From: Manis javanica | Taxonomy: Eukaryota > Chordata > Mammalia > Pholidota > Manidae | Direction: 5' to 3' | Assembly: GCF_040802235.1 (NCBI RefSeq) | Contig: NC_133157.1 | Span: 89,328,001-89,392,000 of the forward strand | Length of the DNA: 64,000 bases | Shown here: positions 254 to 42,583 of the stretch, piece after piece | Numbering within the stretch: position 1 is the stretch's first letter | Layout of the letters: every line of letters begins with the position of its first letter | Notes under the pieces: model-generated | Database searches by the model: none | What the model saw: only the letters and a program-made list of their open reading frames with translations | Told to the model about the DNA's origin: nothing | Translations under genes and position numbers: made by a program

Positions 254-3136
254 CTAACATCACAATTATTGAAACTGGAAAAAGAAGAACAAATGAGGCC
301 TAAAGTCAGCAGAAGGAGGGACATAATAAAGATCAGAGAAGAAATAAACAAAATTGAGAAGAATAAAACAATAGCAAAAATCAATGAAACCAAGAGCTGG
401 TTCTTTGAGAAAATAAACAAAATAGATAAGCCTCTAGCCAAACTTATTAAGAGAAAAAAGAGAATCAACACAAATAAACATAATCAGCAATGAGAATGGG
501 AAACGCACGAGACTCCACAGAAATACAAGGAATTATTAGAGACTACTATTAAAAACCTATATGCCAACAAGCTGGAAAACCTAGAAGAAATGGACAACTT
601 CCTAGAAAAATACAACCTTCCAAGACTGAACAAGGAAGAAACACAAAAGTTAAATAAACCAATTCCGAGCAAAGAAATTGAAACGGTAATCAAAAAACTA
701 CCCAAGAACAAAACCCCCAGGCAAGACAGATTTACCTGGGAATTTTATCAGACACACAGAGAAGACATAATACCCATTCTCTTTAAAGTTTCCCAAAAAT
801 AGAAGAGGAGTGAATACTCCCAAACTCATTCTATGAAGCCAACATCAACCTAATACCAAAACCAGGCAAAGACCCCACCAAAAGAGAAAATTACAGACCA
901 ATATCCCTGATGAATGTAGATGCAAGAATACTCAATAAAATATTAGTGAACCGAATTTAAAAATATATCAAAAGGATCATACACCATGACCAAGTGGGAT
1001 TTATCCCAGGGATGCAAGGATGGTACAACATTTGAAAATCCATCAACACCATACAGCACATCAACAAAAAGAAAGACAAAAACCACATGATCATCTCCAT
1101 AGATGCTGAAAAAGCATTTGACAAAATTCAACATCCATTCATGATAAAAACTCTCAGCAAAATGGGAATAGAGGGCAAGTACCTCAACATAATAAAGGCC
1201 ATATATCATAAACCCACAGCCAACATTATACTGAACAGTGAGAATCTGAAACCTTTTCCTCTGAGATTGGGAACTACACAGGGATGCCCCCTCTCCCCAC
1301 TGTTATTTAACATAGTACTGGAGGTCCTAGCCACGGCAATCAGACAAAACAAAGAAATACAAGGAATCCAGATTGGTAAAGAAGAAGTTAAACTGTCACT
1401 ATTTGCAGATGACATGATACTATACATAAAAAACCCTAAAGACTCCATCCCAAAACTACTAGAACTGATATTGGAATACAGCAAGGTTGCAGGATACAAA
1501 ATCAACACACAGAAATCTGTGGCTTTCCTATACACTAACAATGAACCAACAGAAAGAGAAATCAGGAAAACAACTCCATTCACAATTTCATCAAAAAAAA
1601 TAAAATACCTAGGAATAAACCTATCCAAAGAAGTGAAAGACTTATACTCTGAAAACTACAAGTCACTCTTAAGAGAAATTAAAGGGGACACAAACAGATG
1701 GAAACTCATCCCATTCTCGTGGCTAGGAAGAATTAATATCATCAAAATGGCCATCCTGCCCAAAGCAATATACAGATTTGATGCAATACCTATGAAACTA
1801 TCAGCAACATTCTTCAATGAACTGGAACAAATAATTCAAAAATTCATATGGAAACACCAAAGACCCTGAATAGCCAAAGCAATCCTAAGAAAGAAGAATA
1901 AAGTAGGGGGGATCTCACTCCCCAACTTCAAGCTCTACTATAAAGCCATAGTAATCAAGATAATTTGGTACTGGCACAAGAACAGAGCCACAGATCAGTG
2001 GAACAGACTAGAGTCTCCAGACATTAACCCAAACATATATGGTCAATTAATATTCGACAAAGGAGCCATGGACATACAATGGAGAAATGACAGTCTCTTC
2101 AACAGATGGTGCTGGCAAAACTGGACAGCTACATGTAGGAGAATGAAACTGGACCATTGTCTAACCCCATATACAAAAGTAAATTCAAAATGGATCAAAG
2201 ACCTGAATGTAAGTCATGAAACCATTAAACTCGTAGAAAAAAACATAGGCAAAGACCTCTTAGACAGAAACATGAGTGACCTCTTCTTGAACATATCTCC
2301 CTGGGCAAGGAAAACAAAAGCAAAAATGAACAAGTGGGACTATATCAAACTGAAAAGCTTCTGTACAGCAAGGGACACCATCAATAGAACAAAAAGATAC
2401 CCTACGGTATGGGAGAATATATTTGTAAATGACAGATCCGATAAAGGCTTGACATCCAAAATATATAAAGAGCTCATGCACCTCAACAAACAAAAAGCAA
2501 ATAATCCAATTAAAAAATGGGCAGAGGAACTGAACAGACAGTTCTCCAAAAAAGAAATTCAGATGGCCAACAGACACATGAAAAGATGCTCCACATCACT
2601 AATTATCAGAGAAATGCAAATTAAAACTACAATGAGATATCACCTCACACCAGTAAGGATGGCTGCCATCCAAAAGAAAAACAACAACAAATGTTGGTGA
2701 GGCTGTGGAGAAAGGGGAACCCTCCTACACTGCTGGTGGGAATGTAAATTAGTTCAACCATTGTGGAAAGCACTATGGAGGTTCCTCAAAGTGCTCAAAA
2801 CAGACTTACCATTTGACCCAGGAATTCCACTCCTAGGAATTTACCCTAAGAATGCAGCAATCAAGTTTGAAAAAGACAGATGCACCCCTCCCTATGTTTA
2901 TGGCAGCACTATTTACAATAGCCAAGAATTGGAAGCAACCTAAGTGTCCATCAGTAGATGAATGGATAAAGAAGATGTGGTACATATATACAATGGAATA
3001 TTATTCAGCCATAAGAAGAAAACAAATTCTACCATTTGCAACAACATGGATGGAGCTAGAGAGTATTATGCTCAGTGAAATAAGCCAAGTGGAGAAAGAG
3101 AAATATCAAATGATTTCACTCATCTGTGGAGCATAA
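254..3136 (+). pseudogene. L1 ORF2 (endonuclease/reverse transcriptase), 5'-truncated and broken
   Basis: L1 ORF2p cuts target DNA and reverse-transcribes L1 RNA at the nick. Only the part after the endonuclease domain is present. The reverse transcriptase core is readable at 1087-1869, including motif A (DAEKAFDK) and the catalytic FADD in the context [12 protein letters not shown]. Stops precede this block (around 958 and 1035) and follow it at 1867. A later frame runs 2068-2700 and ends at a TGA inside the C-terminal cysteine region, where related copies keep a Trp/Gln codon. The last frame (2852-3136) ends ...SLICGA. It cannot encode an active enzyme. Confidence 0.9.
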
Positions 3137-3475
3137 GAACAAAGGAAAAACTGAAGGAACAAAACAGCAGCAGAATCACAGAACCCAAGAATGGACTAAC
3201 AGGTACCAAAGGGAAAGGGACTGGGGAGGATGGATGGGTAGGGAGGGATAAGGGGGGAAGAAGAAAGGGGGTATTATGATCAGCATGCATAATGGGGGGG
3301 TGGGAGAAAAGGGAGGGCTGTACAACACAGAGAAGACAAGTGGTGATTCTATAGCATTTTGCTATGCTGATGGACAGTGACTGTAAAGGGGTTTGTGGGG
3401 GGATCTGGTATAGGGGAGAGCCTAGTAAACATAATATTCTTCATGTAATTGTAGATTAATGAATAAAAAAAAAGA
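3137..3475 (+). other. L1 3' UTR of composite copy 1
   Basis: G-rich L1 3' UTR with GGAGGATGGATGGGTAGGG-type purine runs, then the conserved CATGTAATTGTAGATTAATG end followed by A9. It shares variants with the other ERV-tailed copies, such as TGTACAACACAG, TGCTATGCTG and TGGTATAGGGGA. The untailed L1s at 45 and 49 kb have TGTGCAACACAG and TGGTGAAGGGG instead. Confidence 0.8.
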
Positions 3476-3632
3476 AAGGGGGATTACTCCCTGATAGGAT
3501 AAAACTAACTGCAAATCAATGATTAATGCATGCTTTAAGTATCCTTAATTTTGATCTTTCAAAGGGTGTCAGATGAACAGCTATGGAAGTACATTTTTCT
3601 GATAATATTTCTTTCTTTTAAAAAAAAGAAAA

Positions 3633-4198
3633 AGCAGTTCCTGTATGGTGATCTCCAATAAGTCTTCACAATAGTATAAAGGTCATATCAAAGTGTGGGC
3701 AAAGGGTTTGTTTGTGTTTATACAGAGGATCAAAGCCTAATTTGGCTATCCAGATAATGAACTAAGATACGATATGAAGAAGAACTTCCAACATCAACCT
3801 ACTCTGGAAGAGTCATTCCAGAAGATAATCATCAAAAAATTTCAACAAAGATTCTGGCGCTGTTGCAGTTGTAGCTGCATTCATCCCGCCGTTTCCTGGA
3901 CTTGCTGTTGTAATGCAGAAGGAGATACCTAAGCTGGCCTGTGCATACAGTAAAACAACAAATTTGACTGGTTCTATATTGTTGGAATTCAACCAAGAAT
4001 TAGGAGAAGTGTGAGTTGCAAATGCCTAGGGTACCTAACTGGTTTTCTTGATTTCACTGGATATGGCCAGTAATTGTAGGTCTGGTTTTGTTATGTATCT
4101 GTATTCCTATTCTGTTAATGTGTGTATGCAATTTAATTAGTTTTTTAAAACCTATACATGCTTATGTTACTCTACAGGAAGTTATGTCAAAGAAATAA
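3633..4198 (+). pseudogene. ERV pol integrase C-terminus plus env TM remnant (copy 1)
   Basis: The first part translates, with a stop, to the pattern of a betaretrovirus-like integrase C-terminal domain (KGHIKVWAKG block). It passes within about 150 bases into the start of an env TM (KLACAYSKTTNLTGS). The central TM ectodomain is deleted, so the sequence jumps to the membrane-proximal NWF-type region and membrane span. It is not coding. The identification rests on my reading of domain patterns and is firmer for TM than for integrase. Confidence 0.65.
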
Positions 4199-4783
4199 TT
4201 AATCTTACCATGTTTTTTTCTGTCTGCTACTTCTATAGCTTTTCTTCTTCCCTCCTAATTACTGTCCTTTAGTAGAATTCATACCTCATGTTGAAAATTA
4301 CGGAGTATCATAATTCTTCCAAGTGGTAAAGATACCTCAAGACAAATCCTGGGCATAGAAGCCACAGGGCATAAATCTGCAAAGAAGTAAAAAGCTAACC
4401 TTTTCAAACAATATTGCTTCTCTCTCACTTACCAACTTTACATTTCCCTGTATGGCCCCGGAAGATGGCTGGTTAGCCAGAGACAGGTAAGGTTAGTCAA
4501 GGGAGGAACAACCTAAGACAGGCACAGTTGCAGGGGGGTCATCACGTGAGAAATTGGGGATCAACAGAGGTGATGCTTAGAACCTCACCCCCCTGCTTTG
4601 AGAGAAATCTTCTGCATCCATGGATGTTTTGTTGCCCTTGTCTAGCTTGGATTAATACTTAGTCTATAGGCACAGACCTGATCACCTACACTTGCCCTCT
4701 TACAGCACTAAATTATGATTTCTATCTTTATCTTGCATCTACCTACCACTTCAGCATTTTATTTTTTTTAAAAAAGGGAGAAA

Positions 4784-5100
4784 TGTGGGATTCACATATA
4801 AATCAAGTATAAAAATCAAATGAATAATCATATCTGACTTGATTGTTTATAGTTCTTGATGCGTGATCAAAACCAAAAGTTTCTGTGATATGACTGCCCT
4901 TGCACTGTTCACCATGTAAGAACTTATTCACTATGTAAGAACTTGTTCACCATGTAAGAACTTGTTCGTTATGTGTCAGAAGATTGGAGACTGTTGAGAG
5001 TTAGGCTTGGGGTTGACTAATGATTGTGCATTGAGTCCCCTATACAGAATTTTATTGTTCTTAACAACCATTTGATCAATAAATATGAGATGCCCTCTCA
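4784..5100 (+). repeat. ERV LTR (U3-R) at the end of composite copy 1
   Basis: Begins TGTGGGATTC directly after a polypurine tract. It contains AATAAA about 20 bases before its end (CCCTCTCA) and is followed by A8. The end lies where cleavage and polyadenylation would occur, as expected of a retrotransposed polyadenylated RNA. A short motif (ATGTAAGAACTTGTTC) is repeated about three times near 4915-4970. Confidence 0.8.
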
Positions 5101-5108
5101 AAAAAAAA

Positions 5109-7568: not shown

Positions 7569-7648
7569 TTTTTTTTAACTTTGACACCCAAGTTTCTTGG
7601 AGTTTTATTTGTCTTATAATTGAGAAAGAAGCAGTCACTTTCTTTTTT
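7569..7648 (-). other. Candidate 62-bp secondary 3' transduction between two A-tracts
   Basis: On the minus strand the LTR of composite copy 2 is followed by an A-rich run (7639-7648), then 62 bp (7638-7577) containing AAATAAAA about 27 bases before a second run of A8 (7576-7569). Next come G9 and TCAATTC, the mate of the target site at 244-253. A poly(A) signal, correct spacing, an A-tract and a target-site copy together suggest a transduced flank of the source locus. Confidence 0.55.
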
Positions 7649-7972
7649 TGAGAGGGCATCTCTCATATTTATTGATCAAATGGTTGTTAACAACAATAAA
7701 ATTCTGTATAGGGGAGTCAATGCTCAATGCACAATCATTAATCAACCCCCAGCCTAATTCTCATCAGTCTCCAGTCTTCTGAAGCATAACGAACAAATTC
7801 TTACATGGTGAACAAATTCTTACATAGTGAATAAGTTCTTACATGGTGAACAGTACAAGGGCAGTCATCACAGAAACTTTTGGTTTTGATCATGCATTAT
7901 GAACTATAAACAATCAGGTCAAATATGAATATTTGTTTGATTTTTATACTTGATTTATATGTGAATCCCACA
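7649..7972 (-). repeat. ERV LTR of composite copy 2
   Basis: Minus-strand LTR starting TGTGGGATTC (at 7972) and ending ...CCCTCTCA (7649), with AATAAA about 20 bases from the end, followed by an A-rich tract. The structure matches 4784-5100 with roughly 10% difference by eye. The same repeated AAGAA(C/T)TTGTTC-type motif occurs at 7793-7850. Confidence 0.8.
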
Positions 7973-8573
7973 TTTCACCCTTTATTATTATTATTATTCT
8001 TTTTTTAAATAAAATGCTAAAGTGGTAGGTAGATGCAAGATAAAGGTAGAAAACATAGTTTAGTGTTGTAAGAGAGCAATTGTAGATGATCAGGTGTGTG
8101 CCTGTAGACTATGTGTTAATCCAAGCTAGAAAAGGGCAATAAAACATCCACAGATGCAGAAGATTTCTCTCAAAATGGGGGGGGGGTGAAGTTCTAAGCA
8201 TCACCTCTGTTGATCCCCAATTTCTCACCTGATGGCCCCCCTGTGACTGTGCCTGTCTTAGGTTGTTCCTACCTTGAGGAATCTTACCTGTCTCTGGCTA
8301 ACCAGTCATCTTCCAGGGCCATACAGGGAAATGTAAAGTTGGTAAGTGAGAGAGAAGCAATATTGTTTGAAAAGGTTAGCTTTTTACTTCTTTGCAGATT
8401 TATGCCCTGTAGCTTCTATGCCCAGGATTTCTCTTGAGGTATCTTTACCACTTGGAGGAATTATGATACTCGGTGAATTTGATATGAGGCATGAATTCTA
8501 TTTAGGGGTTGTAATTAGGAAAGAAGAGAAAAGCTATAGATGTAGCAGACTGAAGAAAACATGGGAAGATTGA

Positions 8574-9080
8574 TTATTTCTTTGACATATCTTCTTGTAG
8601 AGTAACTTAAGCATGTATAGGTTTTAAACTACTAATTAAATTGTGCATACACATTAACATAATAAGAATACAGTTACATAACCAGAGCAGATCTATAATT
8701 ACCAGCCATCTCCAGTGAAGCCAAGAAAACCAGTTAGGCACCCTAGGCATTTATGAAAATTTGTCTATTATATAATGGATATTGTTCAACTGTACTTGAA
8801 CAATCTGAGAGAAGTCAGAAAAATTAAAACAACCCATTCCTGGGAGCTGTTCACATCCCATATGTTCTATTAACAGTAGATAGTCTGTAGTTGTAATATT
8901 TTGGAGTGCTACAACTTGCACTTTTCCTAATTCTTGGTTGAGTTCCAACAGTGTAGATCCAGTCAAATTTGTTGTTTTACTGTATGCACAGGCCAGCTTA
9001 GATATCTCCTTCTTCATTCCCATGGCAAGTCCAGGAACTGGTGGGATGAGTGCATCTACACCTATAGCAGTGCGTGGATC
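8574..9080 (-). pseudogene. ERV env transmembrane subunit remnant (copy 2)
   Basis: A 90-residue open stretch (9023-8751) carries the N-terminal heptad region, a segment like the immunosuppressive domain, and the cysteine motif read here as C-x7-C (GCEQLPGMGC). A premature stop follows KFS; beyond it the frame resembles the membrane-proximal and membrane-spanning part of the copy at 38.9 kb, ending near 8574. In the usual retroviral CX6CC motif the second cysteine of three would be where Gly stands. No surface subunit precedes it. It is a fossil with no sign of function. Confidence 0.75.
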
Positions 9081-9450
9081 TTTGTTGAGGGGTTTTTGAT
9101 GATCATCTTCTGGTATGACTCTTCCAGAGAGTGCTGATGTTGGAAGTTCCTCTTCATATTGTATCCTAGTTCATTATCTGGGTAGCCAAATTACGCTTTG
9201 ATCCTTTGTATAAACACAAACAGACCCTTTGCCCACACTTTGATATGACCTTTATACCATTGTGTAGAACTCATTGGAGGTCACCACACAGGAACTGCTT
9301 TTTTTTTAAGAGAAAGGAATATTATCAGAAAAGTGTACCTCCATAGCAGATCATCTGACACCCTTTAAGTGATCAAAATTAAGGATATGTAAAGCATGCA
9401 TTAATCGTTGATTTACACTTAGTTTTATCCTGTCAGGGAGTAATACCCCT
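9080..9450 (-). mobile_element. Integrase C-terminal remnant and spacer of the ERV tail (copy 2)
   Basis: Minus-strand continuation between the L1 3' end and env TM. It contains the integrase-like block (reverse complement of about 9300-9150) and the about 150-bp spacer (about 9310-9450) also present in copy 1 but absent from copy 3. It has several stops and no open frame. Confidence 0.6.
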
Positions 9451-9801
9451 TCTTTTTCATTTTTTGTTTTCGTTATATTTAATCTAAACTTACATGAAGA
9501 ATATTATGTTTACTAGGCTCTCCCCTATACCAGGTCCCCCCACAAACCCCTTTACAGTCACTGTCCATCAGCATAGCAAAATGCTATAGAATCACTACTT
9601 GTCTTCTCTGTGTTGTACAGCCCTCCCTTTTCTCCCATCCCCCCATTATGCATGCTGATCATAATACCCCCTTTCTTCTTCCCCCATTATCCCTCCCTAC
9701 CCATCCATCCTCCCCAGTCCCTTTCCCTTTGGTACCTGTTAGTCCATTCTTGGGTTCTGTGATTCTGCTGCTGTTTTGTTCCTTCAGTTTTTCCTTTGTT
9801 C
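9451..9801 (-). other. L1 3' UTR of composite copy 2
   Basis: Minus-strand G-rich L1 3' UTR ending in the CATGTAAG block. It is almost identical to 3137-3444 of copy 1 (about four differences in roughly 220 bp compared by eye), in contrast to the much more different ERV tails. Confidence 0.75.
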
Positions 9802-12800
9802 TTATGCTCCACAGATGAGTGAAATCATTTGGTATTTCTCTTTCTCCACTTGGCTTATTTCACTGAGCATAATACTCTCTAGCTCCATTCATGTTGTTGC
9901 AAATGGTAGAATTTGTTTTCTTCTTATGGCTGAATAATATTCCATTGTGTATATGTACCACATCTTCTTTATCCATTCATCTACTGATGGACACTTAGGT
10001 TGCTTCCAATTCTTGGCTATTGTAAATAGTGCTGCCATAAACATAGGGAGGGGTGCATCTGTCTTTTTCAAACTTGATTGCTGCATTCTTAGGGTAAATT
10101 CCTAGGAGTGGAATTCCTGGGTCAAATGGTAAGTCTGTTTTGAGCACTTTGAGGAACCTCCATAGTGCTTTCCACAATGGTTGAACTAATTTACATTCCC
10201 ACCAGCAGTGTAGGAGGGTTCCCCTTTCTCCACAGCCTCACCAACATTTGTTGTTGTTTTTCTTTTGGATGGCAGCCATCCTTACTGGTGTGAGGTGATA
10301 TCTCATTGTAGTTTTAATTTGCATTTCTCTGATAATTAGTGATGTGGAGCATCTTTTCATGTGTCTGTTGGCCATCTGAATTTCTTTTTTGGAGAACTGT
10401 CTGTTCAGTTCCTCTGCCCATTTTTTAATTGGATTATTTGCTTTTTGTTTGTTGAGGTGCATGAGCTCTTTATATATTTTGGATGTCAAGCCTTTATCGG
10501 ATCTGTCATTTACAAATATATTCTCCCATACCGTAGGGTATCTTTTTGTTCTATTGATGGTGTCCCTTGCTGTACAGAAGCTTTTCAGTTTGATATAGTC
10601 CCACTTGCTCATTTTTGCTTTTGTTTTCCTTGCCCAGGGAGATATGTTCATGAAGAAGTGGCTAATATTTCTGTCCAAGAGATTTTTGCCTATGTCTTTT
10701 TCTAAGAGCTTCATGGTTTCATGACTTACATGCAGGTCTTTGATCCATTTTGAATTTACTTTTGTGTATGGGGTTACACAGTGATCGTTTCATTCTCTTA
10801 CATGTAGCTGTCCAGTTTTGCCAGCACCATCTGTTGAAGAGATTGTCATTTCTCCATTGTATGTCCATGGCTCCTTTGTTGAATATTAATTGACCATATA
10901 TGTTTGGGTTAATGTCTGGAGACTCTAGTCTGTTCCACTGTTCTGTAGCTCTGTTCTTGTGCCAGTACCAGATTGTCTTGATTACTATGGATTTGTAGTA
11001 GAGCTTGAAGCTGGGGAGTGAGATCCCCCCCTCCCCACACACACATTTTCCTTCCTTCTCAGGATTGCTTTGGCTATTCTGGGTCTTTGGTGTTTCCATA
11101 TGAATTTTGGAACTATTTGTTCCAGTTCATTGAAGAATGTTGTTGGTAATTTGATAGGGATTGCATCAAATCTGTATATTGCTTTGGTCAGGATGGCCAT
11201 TTTGACTATATTAATTATTCCTAGCCATGAGCATGGGATGAGTTTCCATTTGTTAGTGTCCTCTTTAATTTCTCTTATGAGTGTCTTATAGCTTTCAGGG
11301 TATAGGTCTTCCATTTCATTGGTTAGGTTTATTCCTAGGTATTTTATTTTTTTTGATGCAATTGTGAATGGAATTGTTTTCCTGATTTCTCTTTCTATTG
11401 TTTCATTGTTAGTGTATAGGAAAAGCAGATTTCTGTGTGTTAATTTTCTATCCTGCAACTTTGCTGTATTCCAATATCAGTTCTCATAGTTTTGGTGTGA
11501 AACCTCTAGGGTTTTTTATGTATAGTCTCATGTCATCTGCAAATAGTGACAATTTAACTTCTTCTTTACCAAATTGGATTCCTTGTATTTCTTTGTTTTG
11601 TCTAATTGCCATGGCTAGGACCTCCAGTACTATGTTAAATAACAGTGGGGAGAGTGGGCATCCCTGTCTTGTTCCCGATCTCAGAGGAAAAGCTTTCAGC
11701 TTCTCGCTGTTCCGTATGATGTTAGCTGTGGGTTGATCACATATGGTCTTTATTATGTTGAGGTACTTGCCCTCTATTCCCATTTTGCTGAGAGTTTTTA
11801 TCATGAATGGATGTTGAATTTTGTCGAATGCTTTTTCAGCATCTATGGATATGATCATATGGTTTTTGTCCTTCTTTCTGTTTATGTGGTGGATAGTGTT
11901 GATGGATTTTCAAATGTTGTACCATCCTTGCATCCCTGGGATTAATCCCACTTGGTCATAGTGTATGATCCTTTTGATATATTTTTAAATTCGGTATGCT
12001 AATATTTGATTGTGTATTTTTGCATCTACATTCATCAAGGATATTGGTCTGTAATTTTCTTTGTTGGTGGGGTCTTTGCCTGGTTTTGGTATTAGGGTGA
12101 TGTTGGCTTCATAGAATGATTTTGGGAGTATTCTCTCCTCTTCTATTTTTTCGAAAACTTTTAGGAGAATGCGTATTGTATCTTCTCTGTATGTCTGATA
12201 AAATTCCAAGGTAAATCTGTCTGGTCCGAGGGTTTTGTTCTTGGGTAGTTTTTTGATTACCACTTCAATTTCTTTGCTCATAATTGGTTTGTTTCGATTT
12301 TGTGTTTCTTCCTTGATCAGTCTTGGAAGGTTGTATTTTTCTAGGAAGTTGTCCATTTCTTCTAGGTTTTCCAGCTTGTTAACATATAGGTCTTCATAGT
12401 AGTCTTTAATAATTCTTTGTATTTCTGTGGAGTCTGTCATGATTTTTCCATTCTCATTTCTGATTCTGTTGATTTGTGTTGATTCTCTTTTTCTCTTAAT
12501 AAGTTTGGCTAGAGGCTTACCTATTTTGTTTATTTTTTCAAAGAACCAGCTCTTGGTTTCATTGATTTTTGCTATTGTTTTATTCTTCTCAATTTTGTTT
12601 ATTTCTTCTCTGATCTTTATTATGTCCCTCCTTCTGTTGACTTTAGGCCTCGTTTGTTCTTCTTTTTCCAGTTTTGATAATTGTGATGTTAGACTATTCA
12701 TTTGGGATTGTTCTTCCTTCTTCAAGTGTGCCTGAATTGCTATATATTTTCCTCTTAGGACTGCTTTCACTGCGTCCCACAGAAGTTGAGGCTTTGTGTT

Positions 12801-13635
12801 GTTGTTGTCATTTGTTTCAATATAGTTCTTGATCTCTATTTTAATTTGGTCGTTGATCCATTGATTATTTAGGAGCATGTTGTTCAGCCTCCATGTATTT
12901 GTGAGCCTTGTTGTTTTCTTCGTACAATTTATTTCTAGTTTTATACCTTCATGGTCTGAAAAGTTGTTTGGTAGGATTTCAGTCTTTTGGAATTTACTGA
13001 GGTTTCTTTGTGGCCTAGTATGTGGTCTATTCTGGAGAATGTTCCATGTGCAGTTGAGAAGAATGTGTATTCTGTTGCTGTTGGATGTAGAGTTCTATAG
13101 ATGTCTTTTAGTTCCATCTGTTCTACTGTGTTGTTCAGTGCCTCCGTGTCCTTACTTATTTTCTGTCCAGTGGATCTATCATTTTGGGTGGGTGGCATGT
13201 TGACATCTCCTAAAATGAATGCATTGCATTCTATTTCCTCCGTTAGTTCTGTTAGTATTTGTTTCACATATGCTGGTGCTCCTGTGTTGGATGCATATAT
13301 GTTTATAATGGTTATATCCTCTTGTTGGACTGAGCCCTTTATCATTATGTAATGTCCTTTTTTATCTCGTTACTGTCTTTGTTTTGAAGTCTATTTTTTC
13401 TGATAGTAGTACTGCAATACCTGCTTTCTTCTCACTGTTTTTTTTCATGAAATATCTTTTTCCATCCCTTGACTTTTAGTCTGTGCATGTCTTTGGGTTT
13501 GAGGTGAGTTTCTTGTAAGCAGCATATAGATGGGTCTTGCTGTTTTATCCATTCTCTTACTCTGTGTCTTTTGATTGGTGCATTCAGTCCATTTACATTT
13601 AGGGTGACGATTGAAAGATATGTATTTATTTTCAT
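9802..13635 (-). pseudogene. L1 ORF2 (endonuclease/reverse transcriptase), full length but broken
   Basis: Starts MKINTYLSIVTLNVNGLNA, the usual start of the L1 endonuclease, with the catalytic Glu in CCLQETH. The frame is then cut into blocks: endonuclease (13635-13432 and 13345-12941), linker (12878-11985), RT core (11858-11484, motif A DAEKAFDK and FADD kept), later RT (11458-10985) and the C-terminal part (10714-9802). The 297-residue linker block is the longest intact piece. Its final kilobase is nearly identical to copy 1. Enzyme activity is excluded by the frameshifts. Confidence 0.9.
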
Positions 13636-13949
13636 TGCAGGCTTTAGATTCGTGGTTACGAAAGGTTCAAGGTTAGCTTCTTTCTTATCTTACTGCCTAA
13701 CTTAGCTCGCTTATTGAGCTGTTATAAACACTGTCTGGAGATTCTTTATTTCTCTCCCTTCTTATTCCTCCTCCTCCATTCTTTATATGTTGGTTGTTTT
13801 ATTCTGTGCTCTTTCATGTTTCCTTTAGCTGCTTTTTGTGGGTAGTTGATTTTATTTTTTGACTTTAGTTAGTATTTGCTTGGTCTGCTTTCTTTGCAGT
13901 GATTTTATTTTCTCTGGTGACATCTGTTTAACTTTAGGAGTGCTCCCAT

Positions 13950-14811
13950 CTAGGGCAGTCCCTCTAAAATACCCTGTAGAGGTGGTTTGTGGGAGGCAAA
14001 TTCCCTCAACTTTTGCTTGTCTGGAAATTGTTTAATCCCTCCTCATATTTAAATAATAATCATGTTGGATACAGTATTCTTGGTTCAAGGCCCTTCTGTT
14101 TCATTGCATTAAATATTTCATGCCATTCTCTTCTGGCCTGTAAGATTTCTGTTGAGAAGTCTGATGATAGTCTGATGGGTTTTCCGTTGTAGGTGACCTT
14201 TTTCCTCTCTCTAGCTGCCTTTAAAACTCTGTCCTTGTCCTTGATCTTTGCCATTTTAATTATTATGTGTCTTGGTGTTGTCCTCCTTGGGTCCCTTCTG
14301 TTGGGAGTTCTGTGTACTTCTGTCATCTGATTTCCTCCCCCAGTTTGGGGAAGTTTTCAGCAATTATTTCTTCAGACACTTTCTATCCCTTTTTCTCTCT
14401 CTGTTCTTCTTCTGGTACCCCTATAATGCGGGTATTGTTCCTTTTGGATTGGTCACACAGTTCTCTTAATATTGTTTCATTCCTGGAGATCCTTTTATCT
14501 CTCTCTGCTTCAGCTTCTGTGCATTCCTGTTCTCTGGTTTCTATTCCATCAATGGCCTCCTGCATCTTATCCATTTTGTTCATAAATCCTTCCAGAGATA
14601 GTTTCACTTGTATAATCTCCCTCCAGAGATCATCCCTTAGCTCTTGTATATTTCTCTGCAGCTCTGTCAGCATGTTTATGATTTTTATTTTGAATTGTTT
14701 TTCGGGAAGACTGGTTAGGCCTATCTCCTTCTCAGGGGTTGACTCTGTGATCTTGGTCTGCCTCAAATTCTGCCTTTTCTTGGCGATAGAGATAGTTTGC
14801 AGAGCTGGCAT
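13950..14811 (-). pseudogene. L1 ORF1 (RNA-binding trimer protein), frameshifted
   Basis: L1 ORF1p coats L1 RNA. From the N terminus: a basic start (MPALQTISIAKKRQNL), a coiled-coil-rich stretch (ELQRNIQELRDDLWREI, then MNKMDKMQEAIDGIE), and the RRM start (NNTRIIGVPEEEQREK). A frameshift follows, then the C-terminal domain (KAARERKKVTYNGKPIRLSSDFS) to a stop at 13950-13952. The ATG used by sister copies (ATGAAAAGGCA) is AAG here, so the only upstream ATG is the MPALQ one at 14811. Confidence 0.85.
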
Positions 14812-15602
14812 GAGTGATGGGTGGGAATATGTCCCTTTTGTTGGTTTTTGGCCTTTCTCTCCTGGGAGAACAGTGACCTCTAGCAGCTTGTGCTGGGCAG
14901 CTGCATGTAGACGGGGCTTCTGATTCTTGCCTGGCCACTGTGGAGTTTAGGTCTGTAGTTGCTCTGGGCATGGCCCGCATCAGGCTGCTGCACTGATATG
15001 GCAGAGCCGTGTCAGAGGGGAAATGGCCAGGAGGCTGTTTATCTCCGTGAGGGGCCTCCGAGGTATGCTGCTGCCCAAGGGGTTAGGGTGCCCTGAGTTC
15101 CCTGGGCTTACCAGCTGCTTGGCTACATGTCCCGGGACACTTCCGTCCAGCTGTGGGGTCCCTGTCCCTTTAAGACTTTAAAAAAGCACCTGCTTTTCTT
15201 TGTCCCAGGGGCACCAGCTGTGGCGACCCACTCACAGGTCTTACTGTCCTGTTTCCCTAGTTTCCAGCACCCCACGCATGCACTGTGTCTGCGCTCTGGT
15301 GCAGATGGCTAGGGCTGGGTGTTTAGCAGTCCTGGGCTCCCTCTCCCTCCCCACTCCAACTCCTCTCCTCCTGCTGGGAGCTGGGGTGAGGGGTGCTCAG
15401 GTCCCACTGGGCCGTGGCTTGTATCTTACCCCCTTTGTGAGGTGCTGGGTTCTCGCAAGTATGGATGTAGTCTGGATGTTGTCCTGTGTCTTCTGGTCTC
15501 TCTTTTAGAAAGAGTTGTCTTTGTTGTATTTCCAAAAATATATGTGGTTTTGGGAGGAGATTTTCGCTTCTCTACTCACGCTGCCATCTTGGCTCCGTCT
15601 CC
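14812..15602 (-). promoter_or_regulatory. L1 5' UTR / internal promoter (copy 2)
   Basis: GC-rich L1 5' UTR read on the minus strand, from GGAGACGGAGCCAAGATGG (15602) to ORF1. The leading AAGATGG motif resembles the YY1-type site at the start of many mammalian L1 promoters (inference). It is homologous to 32437-33431 and 42688-43507. Confidence 0.7.
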
Positions 15603-32179: not shown

Positions 32180-33431
32180 ATGGGGCTCATGGGAAGATGG
32201 CAACATGAGTAGTTCAGAGGAAATCTCCTCCCCAAAACATATATATTTATGAAAATACAATAAATACAACTATTCCTAAAAGAGACACCAGTGGATGCAG
32301 TACAACAGCCAGGATACATCTACATCTCTGAGAACTCAACATCACATGAAGGGGGTAAGATACAAGCTGCAGCCAGGCGGGACTCGAACGCTCCCCCACC
32401 CCAGAACCTGGTGGAAAGAAAGAAGTCAGAGAGGTGCAGAGAAGATGGCGGTGTGAGTAGAGCAGCAGAAATCTCCTCCCAAAACTACATTTATCTATGA
32501 AAATATAACAAAGATAACTCTTCCTAAAAGAGAGACAAGAGGACACAGGACAACATCCAGACCACATCCACACCCGCGAGAACCCAGCGCCTCGTGAAGG
32601 GGGTAAGATACAAGCTCCGGCCCGGTGGGATCTGAGCGCTCCTCCCCCCGGCTCCCAGTGGGTAGAGAGGAGTCAGCAAGGAGGGCTAGGGAGCCCAGGA
32701 CTGCTGAACATCCAGCCCCAGGATTCTGGACCAGAGCTCAGAGCATGTGCGGGGTCCTGGATACTAGGGAAACAGGGCGGCGGGACCGGTGAGCGGGTGC
32801 CTGAGGCCGACGCCGGAGAACAAAGTAACAGGAGCGGCTTTATTTTTTTTTTTTTTGGCAAGTGGTTTTTGGAAGCCTTAAAGGGACAGGGACCCCAATA
32901 CTAGGGAAACAGGGCAGCAAGACCGGTGAGTGGGTGCCTGAGACCGGCACCTGAAGACAAAGAAAATTGTGCGTTTTTCCATTTTTTTAAAAATTATTTA
33001 TTTAATATTTTTTTCTTTCGTTGTTGCTGTTGTTGCTTTGGTTTGGAGAGTGCTTCTTGGAAGTCTCAAAGGGGCAGGACAGGACACGTAGCCCAGAGGC
33101 AGGGAATCTGGGGATCTCTGGGCACTCTAACCCCCTGGGCAGCAGGGAGCACAGAGGCCCCTTACGGAGATAAATAGCCTCCCGGCTGCTCCCCCTCCAA
33201 CAGGGCTCCACCATTTTAGAGGAGCAGCCCCAGCCAGGCCACACCCACAGCAACAGTAGAGATAAACTCCATAGCAACCAGGCAGGAAGCATAAGACCTG
33301 TCGGCGCACAGCTGCCAAGCACAAGCCACTAGAGGTCGCTATTCTCCCAGGAGAGGAAGGCTACAAACCAACAAGAAGGAAAGCTCTTCCAGCTGTCACT
33401 CCTACCAGCACTGCAAACTATTTCTATCACC
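32180..33431 (+). promoter_or_regulatory. L1 5' UTR with two tandem duplications
   Basis: Two successive promoter-like monomers begin GGGAAGATGGCAACATGAGTAG (about 32195) and GAGAAGATGGCGGTGTGAGTAG (about 32440). They share the order ATCTCCTCC, AAAAGAGA, ACACAGGACAACA, GAAGGGGGTAAGATACAAGCT. A second internal duplication starts ATACTAGGGAAACAGGGC at 32761 and again at 32898 (spacing 137 bp). Tandem promoter monomers are known for rodent L1s. Whether they raise promoter strength here is inference. Confidence 0.75.
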
Positions 33432-34322
33432 ATGAAAAGGCAAAACTAAAGGCAGACAAAGATCACAGAGACAACACCTGGGAAGGAGACAGATCTAACA
33501 AGTCTTCCTGAAAAAGAATTTAAAATAAAAATCATGAACATGCTGATGGAGATACAGAGAAAAATGCAAGAGCAATGGTATGAGATGCAGAGAAAAATGC
33601 AAGAGCAATGGGATGAAGTCCGGAGGGAGATCACAGATGTCAGGAAGGAGATCACAGAAGTGAAACAAACCCTGGAAGGATTTATAAGCAGAATGGATAA
33701 GATGCAAGAGGCCATTGAAGGAATAGAAACCAGAGAACAGGAAAGTATAGAAGCTGACATAGAGAGAGACAAAAGGATCTCCAGGAACGAAAAAATACTA
33801 AAATAACTATGTGACCAATCCAACAGGAATAATATCCGTATTATAGGGGTACCAGAAGAAGAAGAGAGAGGAAAAGGGATAGAAAGTCTCTTTGAAGAAA
33901 TAATTGCTGAAAACTTCCCCAAACTGGGGGAGGAAATAATCGAACAGACCAAGGAAATACACAGAACCCCCAACAGAAAGGATCCAAGGAGGACAACACC
34001 AAGACACATAATAATTAAAATGGCAAGGATCAAGGACAAGGAAAGAGTTTTAAAGGCAGCTAGAGAGAAAAAGGTCACCTATACAGGAAAACCCATCAGG
34101 CTAACATCAGACTTCTCGACAGAAAACTTACAGGCCAGAAGAGAATGGCATGATATATTTAATGCAATGAAACAGAAGGGGCTTGAACGAAGGATACTGT
34201 ATCCAGCATGACTCTGATTTAAATATGATGGTGGGATTAAACAATTCCCAGACAAGCAAAAGCTGAGGGAATTTTCTTCCCACAAACCACCTATACAGGG
34301 CATCTTACAGGGACTGCTCTAG
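33432..34322 (+). pseudogene. L1 ORF1, stop at codon 6
   Basis: The start matches that of the nested L1 (MKRQ...), but codon 6 is TAA. A later frame from 33534 encodes coiled-coil repeats (MQRKMQEQW occurs twice, then VRREITDVRKEITEVKQTL); this copy has extra heptad-like units absent from the other ORF1s. A stop at about 33805 interrupts the RRM. The C-terminal domain (MARIKDKERVLKAAREKKVTY...) is readable at 34020-34211. The expected ORF1 stop TAG is at 34320-34322. Confidence 0.88.
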
Positions 34323-34517
34323 ATGGGAGCACTCCTAAAAAGAGCACAGAACAAAACACACAACATATGAAGAATGGAGGAAGAGTAATAAGAAGGGAGA
34401 GAAGAAAAGAATCTCCAGACAGTGTATATAACAGCTCAATGAGCGAGCTAAGGTAGGCAGTAAGAAACTAAAGAAGCTAAACTTGAACCTTTGGTAACCA
34501 CAAATCTAAAGCCTGCA

Positions 34518-37500
34518 ATGGCAATAAGTACATATCTCTCAATAGTCACCCTAAATGTAAATGGACTGAATGCACCAATCAAAAGACACAGAGTATTAGA
34601 ATGGATAAAAAAGCAAGACCCATCTATATGCTGCTCACAAGAAACTCACTTCAAACCCAAAAACAGGCACAGACTAAAAGTCAGGGGATGGAAAAACATA
34701 TTTCAGGCAAACAACAGTGAGAAGAAAGCAGGGATTGCAGTACTAATATCAGACAAAATAGACTTCAAAACAAAGAAAGTAACAAGAGATAAAGAAGGAC
34801 ACTGCATAATGATAAAGGACTCAGTCCAACAAGAGGATATAACCATTCTAAATATATATGCACACAACACAGGAGCACCAGCATATGTGAAACAAATACT
34901 AACAGAACTAAAGAGGGAAATAGACTGCAATGCATTCATTTTAGGAGACTTCAACACACCACTGACCCCAAAGGATAGATCCACCGGACAGAAAATAAGT
35001 AAGGACACAGAGGCACTGAACAACACACTAGAACAGATGGACCTAATAGACATCTACAGAACTCTACATCCAAAAGCAACAGGATACACATTCTTCTCAA
35101 GTGCACATGGAACATTCTCCAGAATAGACCACATACTAGGCCACAAAAAGAGCCTCAGTAAATTAAAAAAGATGGAAATCCTACCAACCAACTTTTCAGA
35201 CCACAAAGGCATAAAACTAGAAATAAATAGTACAAAGAAAGCAGAAAGGCTCACAAACACATGGAGGCTTAACAACACGCTCCTAAATAATCAATGGATC
35301 AATGACCAAATCAAAATGGAGATCCAACAATATACAGAAACAAACGACAAAAACACTAAGCCCCAACTACTGTGGGACACAGCGAAAGCAGTCTTAAGAG
35401 GAAAGTATATAGCAATCCAGGCATATTTAAAGAAGGAAGAACAATCCCAAATAAATGGTCTAATGTCACAATTATTGAAATTGGAAAAAGAAGAACACAT
35501 GAGGCCTAAGGTCAGCAGATGGAGGGACATTATAAAGATCAGAGAAGAAACAAATAAAATTGAGAAGAATAAAACAATAGCAAAAATCAATGAAACCAAG
35601 AGCTGGTTCTTCAAGAAAATAAAATAGATAAGCCTCTAGCCAGACTTATTAAGAGAAAAAGAGAGTCAACACACATCAACAGAATCAGAAATGAGAAAGG
35701 AAAAATCACGATGGACCCCACAGAAATACAAAGAATTGTTAGAGAATACTATGAAAACCTATATGCTAACAAGCTGGAAAACCTAGGAGAAATGGACAAC
35801 TTTCTAGAAAAATATAACCTTCCAAGACTGACCCATAAAGAAACAGAAAATCTAAACAGACCAATTAACAGCAATGAAATTGAATCAGTAATCAAAAAAC
35901 TACCCAAGAACAAAACTCCCGGGCCAGATGGATTTACCTCGAAATTTTATCAGACATACAGAGAAGACATAATACCCATTATCCTTAAAGTTTTCCAAAA
36001 AATAGAAGAGGAGGGAATACTCCCAAACTATGAAGCCAACATCACCCAAATACCAAAACCAGGCAAAGACACCACCAAAAAAGAAAACTACAGACCAATA
36101 TCCCTGATGAACATAGATGCAAAAATACTCAACAAAATATTAGCAAACCAAATTCAAAAATACATCAAAAGGATCGTACACCATGACCAAGTGGGATTCA
36201 TCCCAGGGATGCAAGGATGGTACAACATTTGAAAGTCCATCAACATCATCCACCACATCAACAAAAACAAAGACAAAAATCACATGATCATCTCCATAGA
36301 TGCTGAAAAAGCATTTGACAAAGTTCAACATCCATTCATGATAAAAACTCTCTGCAAAATGGGAATAGAGGGCAAGTACCTCAACATAATAAAGGCCATA
36401 TATCATAAACCCACAGCCAACATTATAGTGAACAGTGAGAAGCTGAAAGTTTTTCCTCTGAGATCGGGAACTAGACAGGGATGCCCACTCTCCCCACTGT
36501 TACTTAACATAGTACTGGAGGTCCTAGCCACGGCAATTAGACAAAACAAAGAAATACAAGGAATCCAGATTGGTAAAGAAGAAGTTAAACTGTCACTATT
36601 TGCAGATGATATGATACTGTACATAAAAAACCCTAAAGACTCCACCCCAAAACTACTAGAACTGATATCGAAATACAGCAAGGTTGCAGGATACAAAATC
36701 AACACACAGAAATCTGTGGCTTTCCTATACACTAACAATGAACCAACAGAAAGAGAAATCAGGAAAACAACTCCATTCACAATTGAATCAAAAAGAATAA
36801 AATACCTAGAAATAAACCTAACCAAAGAAGTGAAAGACGTATACTCTGAAAACTACAAGTCACTCTTAAGAGAAATTAAAGGGGACACAAACAGATGGAA
36901 ACTCATCCCATGCTCGTGGCTAGGAAGAATTAATATCGTCAAAATGGCCATCCTGCCCAAGGCAATATACAGATTTGATGCAATCCCTATGAAACTACCA
37001 TCAACATTCTTCAATGAACTGGAACAAATAATTCAAAAATTCATATGGAAACACCAAAGACCCCGAATAGCCAAAGCAATCCTGAGAAAGAAGATTAAAG
37101 TAGGGGGGATCTCACTCCCCAACTTCAAGCTCTACTATAAAGCCATAGTAATCAAGACAATTTGGTACTGGCACAAGAACAGAGCCACAGACCAGTGGAA
37201 CAGATTAGAGACTCCAGACATTAACCCAGACATATATGGTCAATTAATATTTGATAAAGGAGCCATGGACATACATTGGAGAAATGACAGTCTCTTCAGC
37301 AGATGGTGCTGGCAAAACTGGACAGCTACATGTAGGTGAATGAAACTGGACCATTATCTAACCCCATATACAAAAGTCAACTCAAAATGGATCAAAGACC
37401 TGAATGTAAGTCATGAAACCATTAAACTCTTGGAAAAAAACATAGGGAAAAACCTTTTAGACATAAACATGAATGACCTCTTCTTGAACATATCTCACCA

Positions 37501-38324
37501 GGCAAGGAAAACGACAGCAAAAATGAGCAAGTGGGACTATATTAAGCTGAAAAGCTTCTTTACAGCAAAAGACACCATCAATAGAACAAAAAGGAACCCT
37601 ACAGTATGGGAGAATATATTTGTAAATGACAGATCCAATAAAGGATTGATGTTCAGAATATATGAATAGCTCATGCACCTCAACAAACAAAAATCAAATA
37701 ATCCAATTAAAAAATGGGCAGAGGAACTGAACAGACAGTTCTCTAAAAAAGAAATACCAATGGCCAACAGACACATGAAAAGATGTTCCACATCACTAAT
37801 TATCAGGGAAATGCAAATTAAAACTACAATGAGGTATCACCTCACACTAGTAAGGATGGCTGCCATCCAAATGACAAACAGCAACAAATGTTAGCTAGGC
37901 TGTGGATAACGGGGAACCCTCCTACACTGCTGATGGAAATGTAAATTAGTTCAACCATTGTGGAAAGCAGTATGGAGGTTCCTCGAAATGCTCAAAACAG
38001 ACTTACCATTTGACCCAGGAATTCCACTCCTAGGAATTTACCCTAAGAATGTAGCAATCAAGTTTGAGAAAGACAAACCCTATGTTTATCGCTGCACTAT
38101 TTACAATAGGCAAGAATTGGAAGGAACCTAAGTGTCCATCGATAGATGAATGGATAACGAAGATGTGGTACATATACACAATGGAATACTACTCAGCCAT
38201 AAGAAAAGGGCAAATCCTACCATTTGCAGCAACATGGATGGAGCTGGAGGGTATTATGCTCCGTGAAATAAGCCAAGTGGAGAAAGAGAAATACCAAATG
38301 ATCTCACTCATCTGTGGAGTATAA
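34518..38324 (+). pseudogene. L1 ORF2, long but broken endonuclease/reverse transcriptase
   Basis: Begins MAISTYLSIVTLNVNGLNA. The endonuclease catalytic Glu sits in CCSQETH (residue 42), and the first block is open to 35627. A 4-bp deletion (AAAATAAAATAGATA) shifts the frame there. The next block (35711-36232) ends at a TGA replacing an Arg codon. The RT block 36284-37339 has motif A (DAEKAFDK) and FADD at 36599-36610, and ends at another Arg-to-stop change. The C-terminal cysteine motif has stops (about 37890). Segment 35381-36095 is 99% identical to 45929-46643 in another L1. Confidence 0.9.
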
Positions 38325-38650
38325 GAACAAAGGAAAAACTGAAGGAACAAAACAGCAGCAGAATCACAGAACTCAAGAATGGACTAACAGGTACCAAAGC
38401 GAAAGGGACTGGGGAGGATGGTGGGTAGGGACGGATAAGGTGGGGAGGAAGAAGGGGGCATTAAGATTAGCATGCATAGGTGGGTGGGAGAAAGGGGAGG
38501 GCTGTACAACACAGAGAAGACAAGTAGTGACTCTACAACACTTTGCTATGCTGATGGACAGTAACTGTAAAGGGGTTTATAGGGGGAATCTGGTATAGGG
38601 GAGAGCCTAGTAAACATAATATTCATCATGTAAGTGTAGATTAATGATAA
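38325..38650 (+). other. L1 3' UTR of composite copy 3
   Basis: L1 3' UTR with the tailed-lineage variants TGTACAACACAG, TGCTATGCTG and TGGTATAGGGGA. It ends GTAGATTAATGATAAC followed by A10 and then ERV sequence (GCAGTTCCTGTATGG). Confidence 0.8.
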
Positions 38651-38935
38651 CAAAAAAAAAAGCAGTTCCTGTATGGTGACCTCCAATGACTTCTACACAA
38701 TGGTATAAAGGGCATATAAAAGTGTAGGCAAAGGCTTTGTTTGTGCTTATACAGAGGATCAAAGCCTAATTTGGCTACCCCGAAAATGAACTAAGATACG
38801 ATATGAAAAAGAACTTCCAACATCAGCACTCTGTGGAAGACTCATGCCAGAAGATGATCATCAAAATACCCCAACAAAGATCCAAGCACTGCTACAGGTG
38901 TAGATGCACTCATCCCACCGGTTCCTGGACTTGCC

Positions 38936-39385
38936 ATGGGAATGAAGAAGGAGATATCTAAGCTGGCCTGTGCATACAGTAAAACAACAAATTTGACTGG
39001 ATCTACACTGTTGGAACTCAACTAAGAATTAGGAGAAGTGCAAATTGTATTGCTCCAAAATCATACAACTACAGACTATTTACTGTTAAAAGAACATATG
39101 GGATGTGAACAGTCCCCAGGAATGAGCTGTTTTAATTTGTCTGATTTCTCTCAGACTATTCAAGTTCAGTTGGATAATATCCAGCATATCATAGATAAGT
39201 TTTCACGAATGCCTAAGGTGCCTAACTGGTTTTCTTTGTTTCACTGGAGATGGCTGGTAATTGTAAGTATGCTTTGGTTATGTAACTGTATTCCTATTAT
39301 GTTAATGTGTGTGTGCAATTTAATTAGTAGTTTAAAATCTATACATGCTGAAGTTACTATACAAGTAGATATGTCAAAGAAATAA
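38936..39385 (+). pseudogene. ERV env transmembrane subunit, one stop in 150 codons (copy 3)
   Basis: The frame from ATG 38936 to TAA 39385 has a single internal stop (a CAA-to-TAA change in LELN-x-ELG, near 39020). In order: N-terminal helical region, an LQN-x6-YLLL segment like the immunosuppressive domain, the cysteine motif GCEQSPGMSC (Ser where the canonical middle Cys would be), a second helix, the membrane-proximal NWFSLFHWRW, a hydrophobic span (LVIVSMLWLCNCIPIMLMCVC), and a short tail ending VDMSKK. The surface subunit is absent. Degree of conservation relative to neutral decay is unknown. Confidence 0.78.
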
Positions 39386-39974
39386 TCAATCTTCCCATGT
39401 TTTCTTCCACCTGCTACTTCTATAGCTTATCTTCTTCATTCCTAATTACAACCCATACATAGAATTCGTGCCTCATATCGAATTTACCATGTATCACAAT
39501 TCTTCCAAGTGGTAAAGATACCTTAAGACAAATGCTGGGCATAGAAGCCACAGGGCATAAATATGCAAAGAAGTAAAAAAGTAACCTTTTCAAACAATAA
39601 GGCTTCTCTCTCACTTACCAACTTTATGTTTCCCTGTATGGCCCCAGAAGATGACTGGCTAGCCAGAGACGGGTAAGATTCCTCAAGGGAGGAACAACCT
39701 AAGACAGGCACAGTCGCAGGGGTCCACCAGGTGAGGAATTGGGGATCAACAGGGGTGAGGCTTAGAACCTCCCCCCACCATTCTGAGAGAAATATTCTGC
39801 ATCCATGGATGTTTTATTACCCTTGTCTAGCTTGGATTAACACATAGTCTACAGGCACACACCTGATCTTCTACATTTGCTCTCTTACAACACTAAACTA
39901 TGTTTTCTACCTTTATCTTGCATCTACCTACCACTTCAGCATTTTATTAAAAATAATAATAATAAAGAGAGAAA

Positions 39975-40296
39975 TGTGGTACCCACATAAAAATCAAGTA
40001 TAAAAATCAAAGAATATTCATATTTGAACTGACTGTTTATAGTTCATAATGCATGATCAAAACTGAAAGTTTCTGTGATGACTGTCCTTGTACTATTCAC
40101 CATGTAACTTATTCAGTATGTAAGAATTTGTTCTCCATGTAAGAACTTGTTCGTTATGCTTCAGAAGATTGGAGACTGAAGAAAATTAGGCTTGGGGTGG
40201 ATTAATGATTATACATTGAGCATTGAGTCCCCTATAGAGAATTTTATTGTTGTTAACAACCATTTGATAAAAAAAAAAATAGGAGAGATACCCTCA
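39975..40296 (+). repeat. ERV LTR of composite copy 3
   Basis: Begins TGTGGTACCCACATAA and ends ...TACCCTCA. It aligns throughout with 4784-5100. The AATAAA signal of the other two copies is altered here to a run of A (GATAAAAAAAAAAATAGG). Confidence 0.75.
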
Positions 40297-40303
40297 CAAA
40301 AAA

Positions 40304-40342
<39 letters not shown>

Positions 40343-40355
40343 AATAAAATAAAGT
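40297..40355. repeat. (AAAT)n microsatellite grown from a poly(A) tail
   Basis: About 12 AAAT units follow directly on the end of composite copy 3. This is a common fate of L1 poly(A) tails. Confidence 0.92.
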
Positions 40356-40590
40356 ACACACTTCCAATTGTAAAATAAGTAAGTAACCGGGATGTAATGT
40401 ATAGCATAAGGAATATAGTCAAAATATTGTGACAACTTGGTATGGTGATAGCTGGTACCTAGAATTATCATGTATATAAATGTTCAATCACTGTGTTGTA
40501 CACCTGAAAGTAATGTAATATTGTATGTCAACTACGCTTCAATAAAAAATTATTATCTAAAAATAAAAACAAAAAACAAAGAAAGAATTC
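40356..40590 (+). mobile_element. Old L1 3' end with poly(A) signal
   Basis: Matches the 3' end of an older L1 (GTACACACTTCCAATTGTAAAATAAGTAAG ... CTGTGTTGTACACCTGAAAGTAATGTAATATTG ... CTTCAATAAAAAATT) followed by an A-rich tail. It may be an older neighbour or a further 3' transduction of copy 3; no duplication was found to decide this. Confidence 0.65.
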
Positions 40591-42392: not shown

Positions 42393-42583
42393 ATGGGAGC
42401 AGTCCTTAAAAGAGCACAGAACAAAACACCCAACATATGAAGAATGGAGGAGGAGGAATAAGAAGGGAGAGAAATAATCATCGGACTGTGCTTATAATAG
42501 CTCAATAAGCGAGTTAAGCCAGACAGTAAGGTAGTAAACAAGCTAACCTTGAACCTTTGGTAACCATGAATATAAAGCTTGCA

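Follow-up and report, generated by a model that had tools for sequence, protein, structure and literature searches.

The window analysed here, a stretch of 64,000 nucleotides (C2:89328001-89392000) from a host genome of 2.56 Gb in 63 contigs, harbors three L1 copies, termed A, B, and C. Self-comparison of the window and alignment revealed an identical order of parts in copies A (254-5108, plus strand), B (15602-7643, minus strand), and C (32180-40297, plus strand), namely the end of L1 ORF2, the L1 3' UTR, an A-rich joint, a tail of approximately 1.6-1.8 kb, and an A-tract. From 5' to 3' the tail comprises a remnant of the integrase C-terminus, the transmembrane (TM) part of env, a polypurine tract, and an LTR that is cut at its poly(A) site and followed by the A-tract. 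This corroborates the preliminary description, which stated that all three L1s enter the same endogenous retrovirus (ERV) segment and end in an A-tract after the LTR poly(A) signal, with the reservation that this signal is damaged in C.

Copy A contains a 5'-truncated L1 (254-3462; part of ORF2 and the 3' UTR) that aligns to B and C and has stop-free stretches of 277 and 276 aa. It is followed by an A-rich L1-tail remnant as the joint (3463-3477), which resembles the joint of the 36 genomic copies that could be parsed among 46 tried. The retroviral tail of A (3478-5099), for which the protein evidence comes from copy B, lacks 158 bp of TM; its LTR spans 4784-5099 up to the poly(A) site with AATAAA at 5078-5083, and nine As (5100-5108) terminate the copy. 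Directly upstream, positions 214-249 match an older L1 ORF2 at approximately 78-80%, and judged by eye this older element extends back to about 110. Copies B and C reach into L1 5' UTR sequence. In B, the L1 runs from the start of the 5' UTR to the 3' UTR (9462-15602), and the tail (7650-9449) includes a stop-free TM frame (8751-9170), the LTR (7972-7650) with AATAAA at 7673-7668, and a terminal tract of seven As (7643-7649). The L1 of C (32180-38651) has a doubled 5' head (32193-32429 and 32441-32676, 75% alike) and stop-free stretches of 387 and 368 aa. Its tail (38662-40297) is devoid of the first ~160 bp, a short junction that recurs genome-wide, and contains an LTR from 39975 onwards, followed by an AAAT-rich tract (40298-40353). 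All three are broken L1s, with maximal stop-free stretches of 277 aa (A), 369 aa (B), and 387 aa (C). An L1 without the tail, termed G (40590-49215, plus strand; composed of 40590-42690 and 45152-49215, and interrupted at 42690-45152), served for comparison and ends in TTAATGATACC followed by As.

The LTR of A and B starts with TGTGGGATTCACA immediately 3' of a purine-rich tract, which reads AAAAAAGGGAGAAA in A, and it ends 16 (A) or 18 (B) bases beyond AATAAA. With up to three mismatches, a 28-base motif of the tail matched exclusively the tails of A, B, and C within the window and was not found in 100 shuffles, which rules out a chance origin of the shared tail. The stop-free TM frame of B matches the ASLV TM structures 5h9c and 4jpr (E ~5.6e-08), and one short piece of B was the only one to match an integrase family (Pfam IN_DBD_C, E=0.002, 17.9 bits, below the curated cut-off of 21), so that relics of retroviral proteins are present. 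Three other tail pieces searched against Pfam for integrase gave nothing, six tail frames gave no retroviral Pfam family, and inspection of three frames by eye revealed no SU-like stretch between the integrase remnant and TM. Likewise, searches for phage, Rfam, and tRNA sequences, pattern searches and a TM alignment on viral contigs, searches of genome contigs, and a query with the junction-spanning peptide of C returned nothing informative.

With the TM frame of B as query, 31 proteins on short contigs were matched among 36 candidates; they were kept out of the evidence for the link to L1. Seven of the 31 extend upstream of TM, and A-like and B/C-like types occur among them, two of the seven being undecided. 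Over a stretch of 61 TM residues, A resembles one outside protein type (e.g., P0028), and B and C resemble another (P0030), which suggests that distinct tail types predate the insertions of A, B, and C.

An ERV or LTR retrotransposon is defined by two LTRs with U5, a primer-binding site, and a duplication of 4-6 bp. The tailed copies do not have this organization: the duplications around tailed genomic copies measure 12-20 bp, as compared to the 4-6 bp of ERV type. Moreover, self-comparison revealed a single LTR in each window copy, cut at the poly(A) site, and no full provirus, which argues against complete proviruses inserted in each of the L1s.

The flanks of A, B, and C contain no convincing target-site duplication (TSD), as judged by a flank search against 300 controls each. 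For B, 12 of 16 bases are duplicated, which was equalled by 42 of the 300 controls, and no duplication was found for C (268/300 controls equal) or for A with its 5' end at 254 (232/300). When the 5' end of A was set near 128, a 9-base duplication with one mismatch was obtained, equalled by 6/300 controls.

The host genome was searched with window positions 3400-3700, which cover the joint of A. Among 3575 first-look candidates, all 40 scored matches, distributed over 12 contigs, span the joint, with 100% identity for the window itself and 91-94% for the others. The shorter junction of C yielded 2203 candidates, and again 40/40 scored matches span the joint, with 95-97% identity besides C itself. 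Hence the long form of the tail and the one devoid of its first ~160 bp are both recurrent in the genome. The last 28 bases of the tail followed by six As occur in 16,612 exact genomic copies, and the reversed-pattern control gave none. The lineage, which the preliminary description had presented as three copies, thus has three members in the window and many thousands in the genome, part of which are young.

A search for the tail end with any base but A in the next position gave 172 genomic matches. In 26 of the first 30 listed, at least six As occur within 7 bases, and three of the four exceptions (L017, L022, and L031, but not L011) are still A-rich there. Hence, an LTR continuing past the poly(A) site is possible in that sample for L011 alone. 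Overall, 58 of 60 sampled tail ends showed at least three As within 7 bases. The genomic samples lie within the first 22 Mb of contig C1, and some of their flanks are related.

The sequence upstream of the tail ends was read in stretches of 1251 bp for 20 of the first 24 listed; the other four were excluded as another LTR unit lies directly upstream. In 16 of the 20, L1 ORF2 end, 3' UTR, joint, and tail precede the tail end, the L1 part of L084 being rearranged. Two (L069 and L080, 99.8% identical) retain just the last part of the L1 3' UTR, with other sequence upstream of it. L082 starts at the tail start, and the upstream stretch L070 is free of L1 and tail sequence, the corresponding copy (L040) being 5'-truncated deeper in the tail. 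Thus, 18/20 tail ends are joined to an L1 3' UTR, the other two having lost their 5' part up to the tail start or beyond. In L069 and L080, positions ~1-800 resemble by eye an LTR and leader of another ERV, fused to the last ~77 bp of the L1 3' UTR plus tail, which is possibly a 5' transduction.

We then looked from the L1 side. The L1 3'-end motif of young copies has 6,885 exact genomic matches, and the tail is present at 47/47 of the first listed (21 exact tail-start matches, 6 stretches already read, and 20 newly fetched); the A/B-type motif has 2,293 exact matches, and the first 20 listed are all tailed. Since both motifs were picked from tailed copies, 47/47 and 20/20 denote a linkage between the tail and the 3' UTR type and not a share of all L1s. 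The canonical 3' end of the untailed type has 6,851 exact matches, and none of the first 10 listed is tailed, a sample equivalent to about five independent ones because four of the 10 share one flank and three another. In these 10, the 3' UTR leads straight to the terminal poly(A), whereas in the tailed lineage it continues into the retroviral tail. AATAAA is absent at the L1/ERV joint in 32 of the 36 parsed joints (46 tried), whereas by eye it follows directly after TACC in five of the 10 untailed ends, three of these five sharing a flank. A 3' UTR tree of six sequences placed A, B, and C apart from the untailed ends (support 84-86); given its ill-aligned outgroup, it was not relied on.

These data bear on the idea that the tail is a separate, non-autonomous retroposon of SINE-R type that inserted repeatedly into the poly(A) tails of L1s. 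The occurrence of tandem LTR or tail units split by A-tracts (L041, L050-L052, L060, L067) does indicate that insertion into, or copying within, A-tracts takes place. However, all 67 sampled L1 3' ends of the two motif types are tailed in one orientation and with a like joint, none of the 10 untailed-type ends is, the tail ends that are not joined to an L1 3' UTR are truncated ones, and in the two L1-holding copies the TSD encloses L1 and tail jointly (see below). We therefore consider such a retroposon very improbable.

L1 insertions are characterized by a 3' A-tract, frequent 5' truncation, and a TSD of about 7-20 bp, and the tailed copies show all three, the 5' truncation points among the sampled copies being variable. 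TSDs were sought for four genomic copies with a read 5' end, each against 100 random-flank controls. In three of the four, a TSD of 15-16 bp encloses the L1+tail or tail unit, and none of the controls equalled it. A full-length copy, reaching from the start of the L1 5' UTR to the tail and a second LTR, is surrounded as an entire unit by a perfect 15-bp duplication; a copy truncated in ORF2 has a duplication of ~15 bp that partly consists of As, so that in both L1-containing copies L1 and tail are enclosed together. A copy truncated at the tail start has a 16-bp duplication. A second full-length copy gave no TSD (82/100 controls equal). The target duplications outside the ERV part that the preliminary description anticipated are thus present in three of the four copies read. 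Among 23 copies with the 5' end inside the tail, duplications of 12-20 bp, equalled by 0/100 controls, were found in six (L018, L021, L032, L036, L037, and L040; L018 and L032 with one or two mismatches). In 15 of the 23 the duplication is weak or absent, the best being L011 (9 bp, 2/100 controls) and L019 (8 bp, 6/100); L050 and L051 were scored and left uncounted as tandem-LTR effects. The tailed copies accordingly share what defines a 3'-transduction family, i.e., common non-L1 sequence 3' of the L1 and a TSD outside of it.

Tandem LTR or LTR-plus-tail units with A-tracts between them were observed at the 3' end of L041, L042, L049, L050-L052, L060, L061, L067, and L068. Where genomic copies carry such tandem LTRs (two or three), each of them stops at its poly(A) site and has an A-tract after it. 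The duplication around the whole full-length L1 with two LTRs indicates that doubled tails are retrotransposed.

Three further upstream stretches were read, comprising one copy with long open frames, one broken copy, and one 5'-truncated in ORF2. In the first of these, a young tailed copy, the predicted domains comprise an ORF1 RBD-like domain (3e-25), an endonuclease (5.1e-24), and a reverse transcriptase (RT; 4.7e-47). This copy therefore combines an ORF1 (Transposase_22) with an ORF2 containing endonuclease and RT, as is expected of a LINE-1.

The composite might instead have been spread by segmental duplication, and three sampled pairs indeed have duplicated or related 3' flanks (L041/L049, L045/L048, and, weaker, L039/L054). 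When the 3' flanks of 30 sampled tail ends were compared, words were shared by 7 of the 435 pairs; in four of these the shared sequence belongs to tandem LTRs. As the other 428 pairs have no flank word in common, segmental duplication is a minor contributor, and the shared flanking DNA that would speak against the preliminary description is not what the sample shows. The varying 5' truncation points, the TSDs, and the lack of a common flank of A, B, and C in the window self-comparison likewise argue against segmental duplication, which we deem extremely improbable as the source of the lineage. The preference of the preliminary description for one capture followed by repeated retrotransposition over three ERV insertions is supported by the genome-wide joint and by the TSDs outside the ERV part.

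Pairwise differences among sixteen junction copies amount to 0.24-9.4% (median 2.8%), indicating that the spread was both long-lasting and recent; the tails in the window differ by 9.2-13.0%. If neutral change proceeds at about 2e-9 per site and year, these values correspond to ages ranging from roughly one million years, or less, up to some tens of millions. B and C differ by 9.3% in ORF2, 8.5% in the 3' UTR, and 9.2% in the tail, as expected if L1 and tail travelled jointly. Within the L1, individual blocks differ by 7.1 to 11.5%, and the divergence is larger in 5' UTR plus ORF1 (16.4%). Copy A has changes of its own at 104 of 1464 sites in the tail, as opposed to 18/1231 and 25/830 in two blocks of the L1 body. 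With the tail more changed than the body, the two do not have one simple common history. Local gene conversion (see the exact A/B tract below) or exchange between tailed L1s may explain this discordance, which complicates the dating of A and leaves the main claim intact. For many of the tails L039-L068 and L092-L111, the integrase-TM part is less similar to that of B (often ~80%) than are the middle part (~90%) and the LTR (~93%), so that divergence is uneven along the tail.

Exact tracts link neighbouring elements of the window, namely 658 bp between A and B (2331-2988 versus 10607-9950) and 358 bp between C and G (35380-35737 versus 45928-46285), the expected longest identical runs being ~79 and ~52, respectively. 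The tracts are most simply attributed to local gene conversion or to an assembly effect. Set against a background difference of ~7-12%, these tracts could be taken to mean that A, B, and C share the tail solely through gene conversion between neighbours. Given that the tails differ by 9-13% and that the joint is found genome-wide, the probability of this is negligible.

Another question is whether the tail was captured once or twice. In the latter case, an L1 would have joined the ERV at the tail start (form of A and B) and again ~160 bp further in, at TT/AAAA (form of C). The junction of C is widespread (all 40 scored matches), and its breakpoint corresponds to an A-run after TT in A and B, a configuration also expected if another L1 had inserted independently into the ERV; an A-run after TT is a typical target of the L1 endonuclease. 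On the other hand, both breakpoints lie in A-runs, so that a single internal deletion in an ancestor of the A/B form suffices, and the similar divergence of B and C in ORF2, 3' UTR, and tail argues against separate origins, albeit with the spread of values among the L1 blocks given above. Two captures hence appear rather unlikely, and we favour a single one.

Taken together, these results are very probably best explained by a capture through 3' transduction, after which the tail was inherited and the LTR served as poly(A) site. In this scenario, an autonomous L1 would have resided in sense orientation just upstream of or within an ERV fragment that retained the integrase end, TM, and the 3' LTR. 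Its transcripts would have passed the weak end of the L1 itself, with cleavage taking place at the poly(A) site of the LTR. The resulting L1+ERV RNA would then have been reverse transcribed from its poly(A) by L1 ORF2p and inserted by target-primed reverse transcription, and a descendant would have founded the large lineage, which passes on the retroviral tail of 1.6-1.8 kb and whose copies terminate at the LTR poly(A) site, the LTR thereby supplying 3'-end formation. The units of L1 and tail are inserted in the manner of an L1, they end at the LTR poly(A) site, and the tail is inherited with two 3' UTR types. The founding insertion and the read-through are what we infer from this pattern, and the LTR signal may be used in present RNA and be advantageous. 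The missing or weak TSDs of A, B, and C, the absence of a TSD in one of two full-length genomic copies, and the weak or absent duplications in 15 of 23 tail-truncated copies are a counterpoint to this explanation.

On balance, we lean towards the wider view that this is a major, perhaps dominant, recent L1 lineage with the LTR as a permanent, perhaps obligatory, 3'-end signal, whose own end has decayed, whose tail has diversified including tandem LTRs, and which is still or was very recently active. The decay of the L1 end is read from the 32 of 36 parsed joints without AATAAA.

Indirect looks for the founding provirus, i.e., the non-A tail ends and a genome search with the integrase C-terminal family PF00552, did not find it, and no proviral copy was seen. 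The PF00552 search gave 150 scored matches among 2335 candidates, many in long open frames, and the host genome seems to be rich in young ERVs.

The tailed L1s have several known relatives. Processed ERV copies generated by L1 (HERV-W-like) end at R followed by poly(A) and have an L1-type TSD; in these features they resemble the tailed L1s, and they differ in that they are not known to carry an L1 body. The SINE-R part of SVA elements consists of env and LTR sequence that ends at the LTR poly(A) site. SVA, a composite retrotransposon of hominoids, is non-autonomous and lacks an L1 body, whereas the ERV tail described here belongs to an L1 with ORF1 and ORF2. The upstream parts of SVA (hexamer repeats, Alu-like part, VNTR) were not encountered, L1 ORF2 and 3' UTR being upstream in 16/20. 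The likeness lies in the mobilization by L1 and in the ERV-derived 3' end with poly(A), which the part of the source available to us describes for SVA with a HERV-K-derived end (PMC7353768). According to the accessible portion of another article, a human L1 3'-transduction family of chromosomes 11 and 3 comprises 14 members that have downstream sequence in common after their own poly(A) signal was bypassed (PMC6425141). The tailed L1s are likewise an L1 lineage with common downstream sequence, but the transduced piece is retroviral and tied to 3' UTR types with thousands of exact matches, as opposed to the 14 members reported in that portion (PMC6425141). The same excerpt contains an L1 5' transduction initiated by HERV-H, with ERV and L1 in one retrotransposed RNA; that case concerns the 5' side and a single family member, whereas the ERV sequence here is on the 3' side and inherited (PMC6425141). 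A chimeric insert at mouse Axin1, as far as the available text tells, unites a piece of L1 ORF2 and a MaLR LTR in one unit; it is an engineered knock-in, unlike the natural lineage described here (PMC6500023). The available part of a study on perissodactyl L1s mentions no such tail (PMC5872511). None of the matches listed in the literature search describes an L1 lineage that carries an ERV tail; an entry in a repeat library such as Repbase or Dfam may already exist.

In comparison with the small families known to date (the largest human one with 14 members in the part of the source at hand, PMC6425141), a 3'-transduced piece would here have become a heritable part of an L1 lineage of many thousands, and the captured piece brought a viral poly(A) signal to L1. 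This opens up tests of whether weak poly(A) signals limit the success of L1 and whether the LTR signal relieves this limitation, and it bears on how SVA-like tails begin. For annotation, it means that many calls of ERV env or LTR sequence in such a genome may be L1 3' ends, which would inflate ERV counts.

Two further features of the window are worth recording. Inside L1 G, at 42696-45140, lies a half-L1 with 5' UTR, ORF1, and 3' UTR and no ORF2, flanked by a 15-bp duplication (AAAAAAGCAAGACCC), which we take to be HAL1-like. The alternative that 42690-45133 is a single L1 containing a nested piece of 3' UTR was rejected in favour of this ORF2-less L1 inserted in G. Finally, a diverged minisatellite with units of ~90 bp occupies 56705-57630, 60273-61435, and 62470-64000 of the window.
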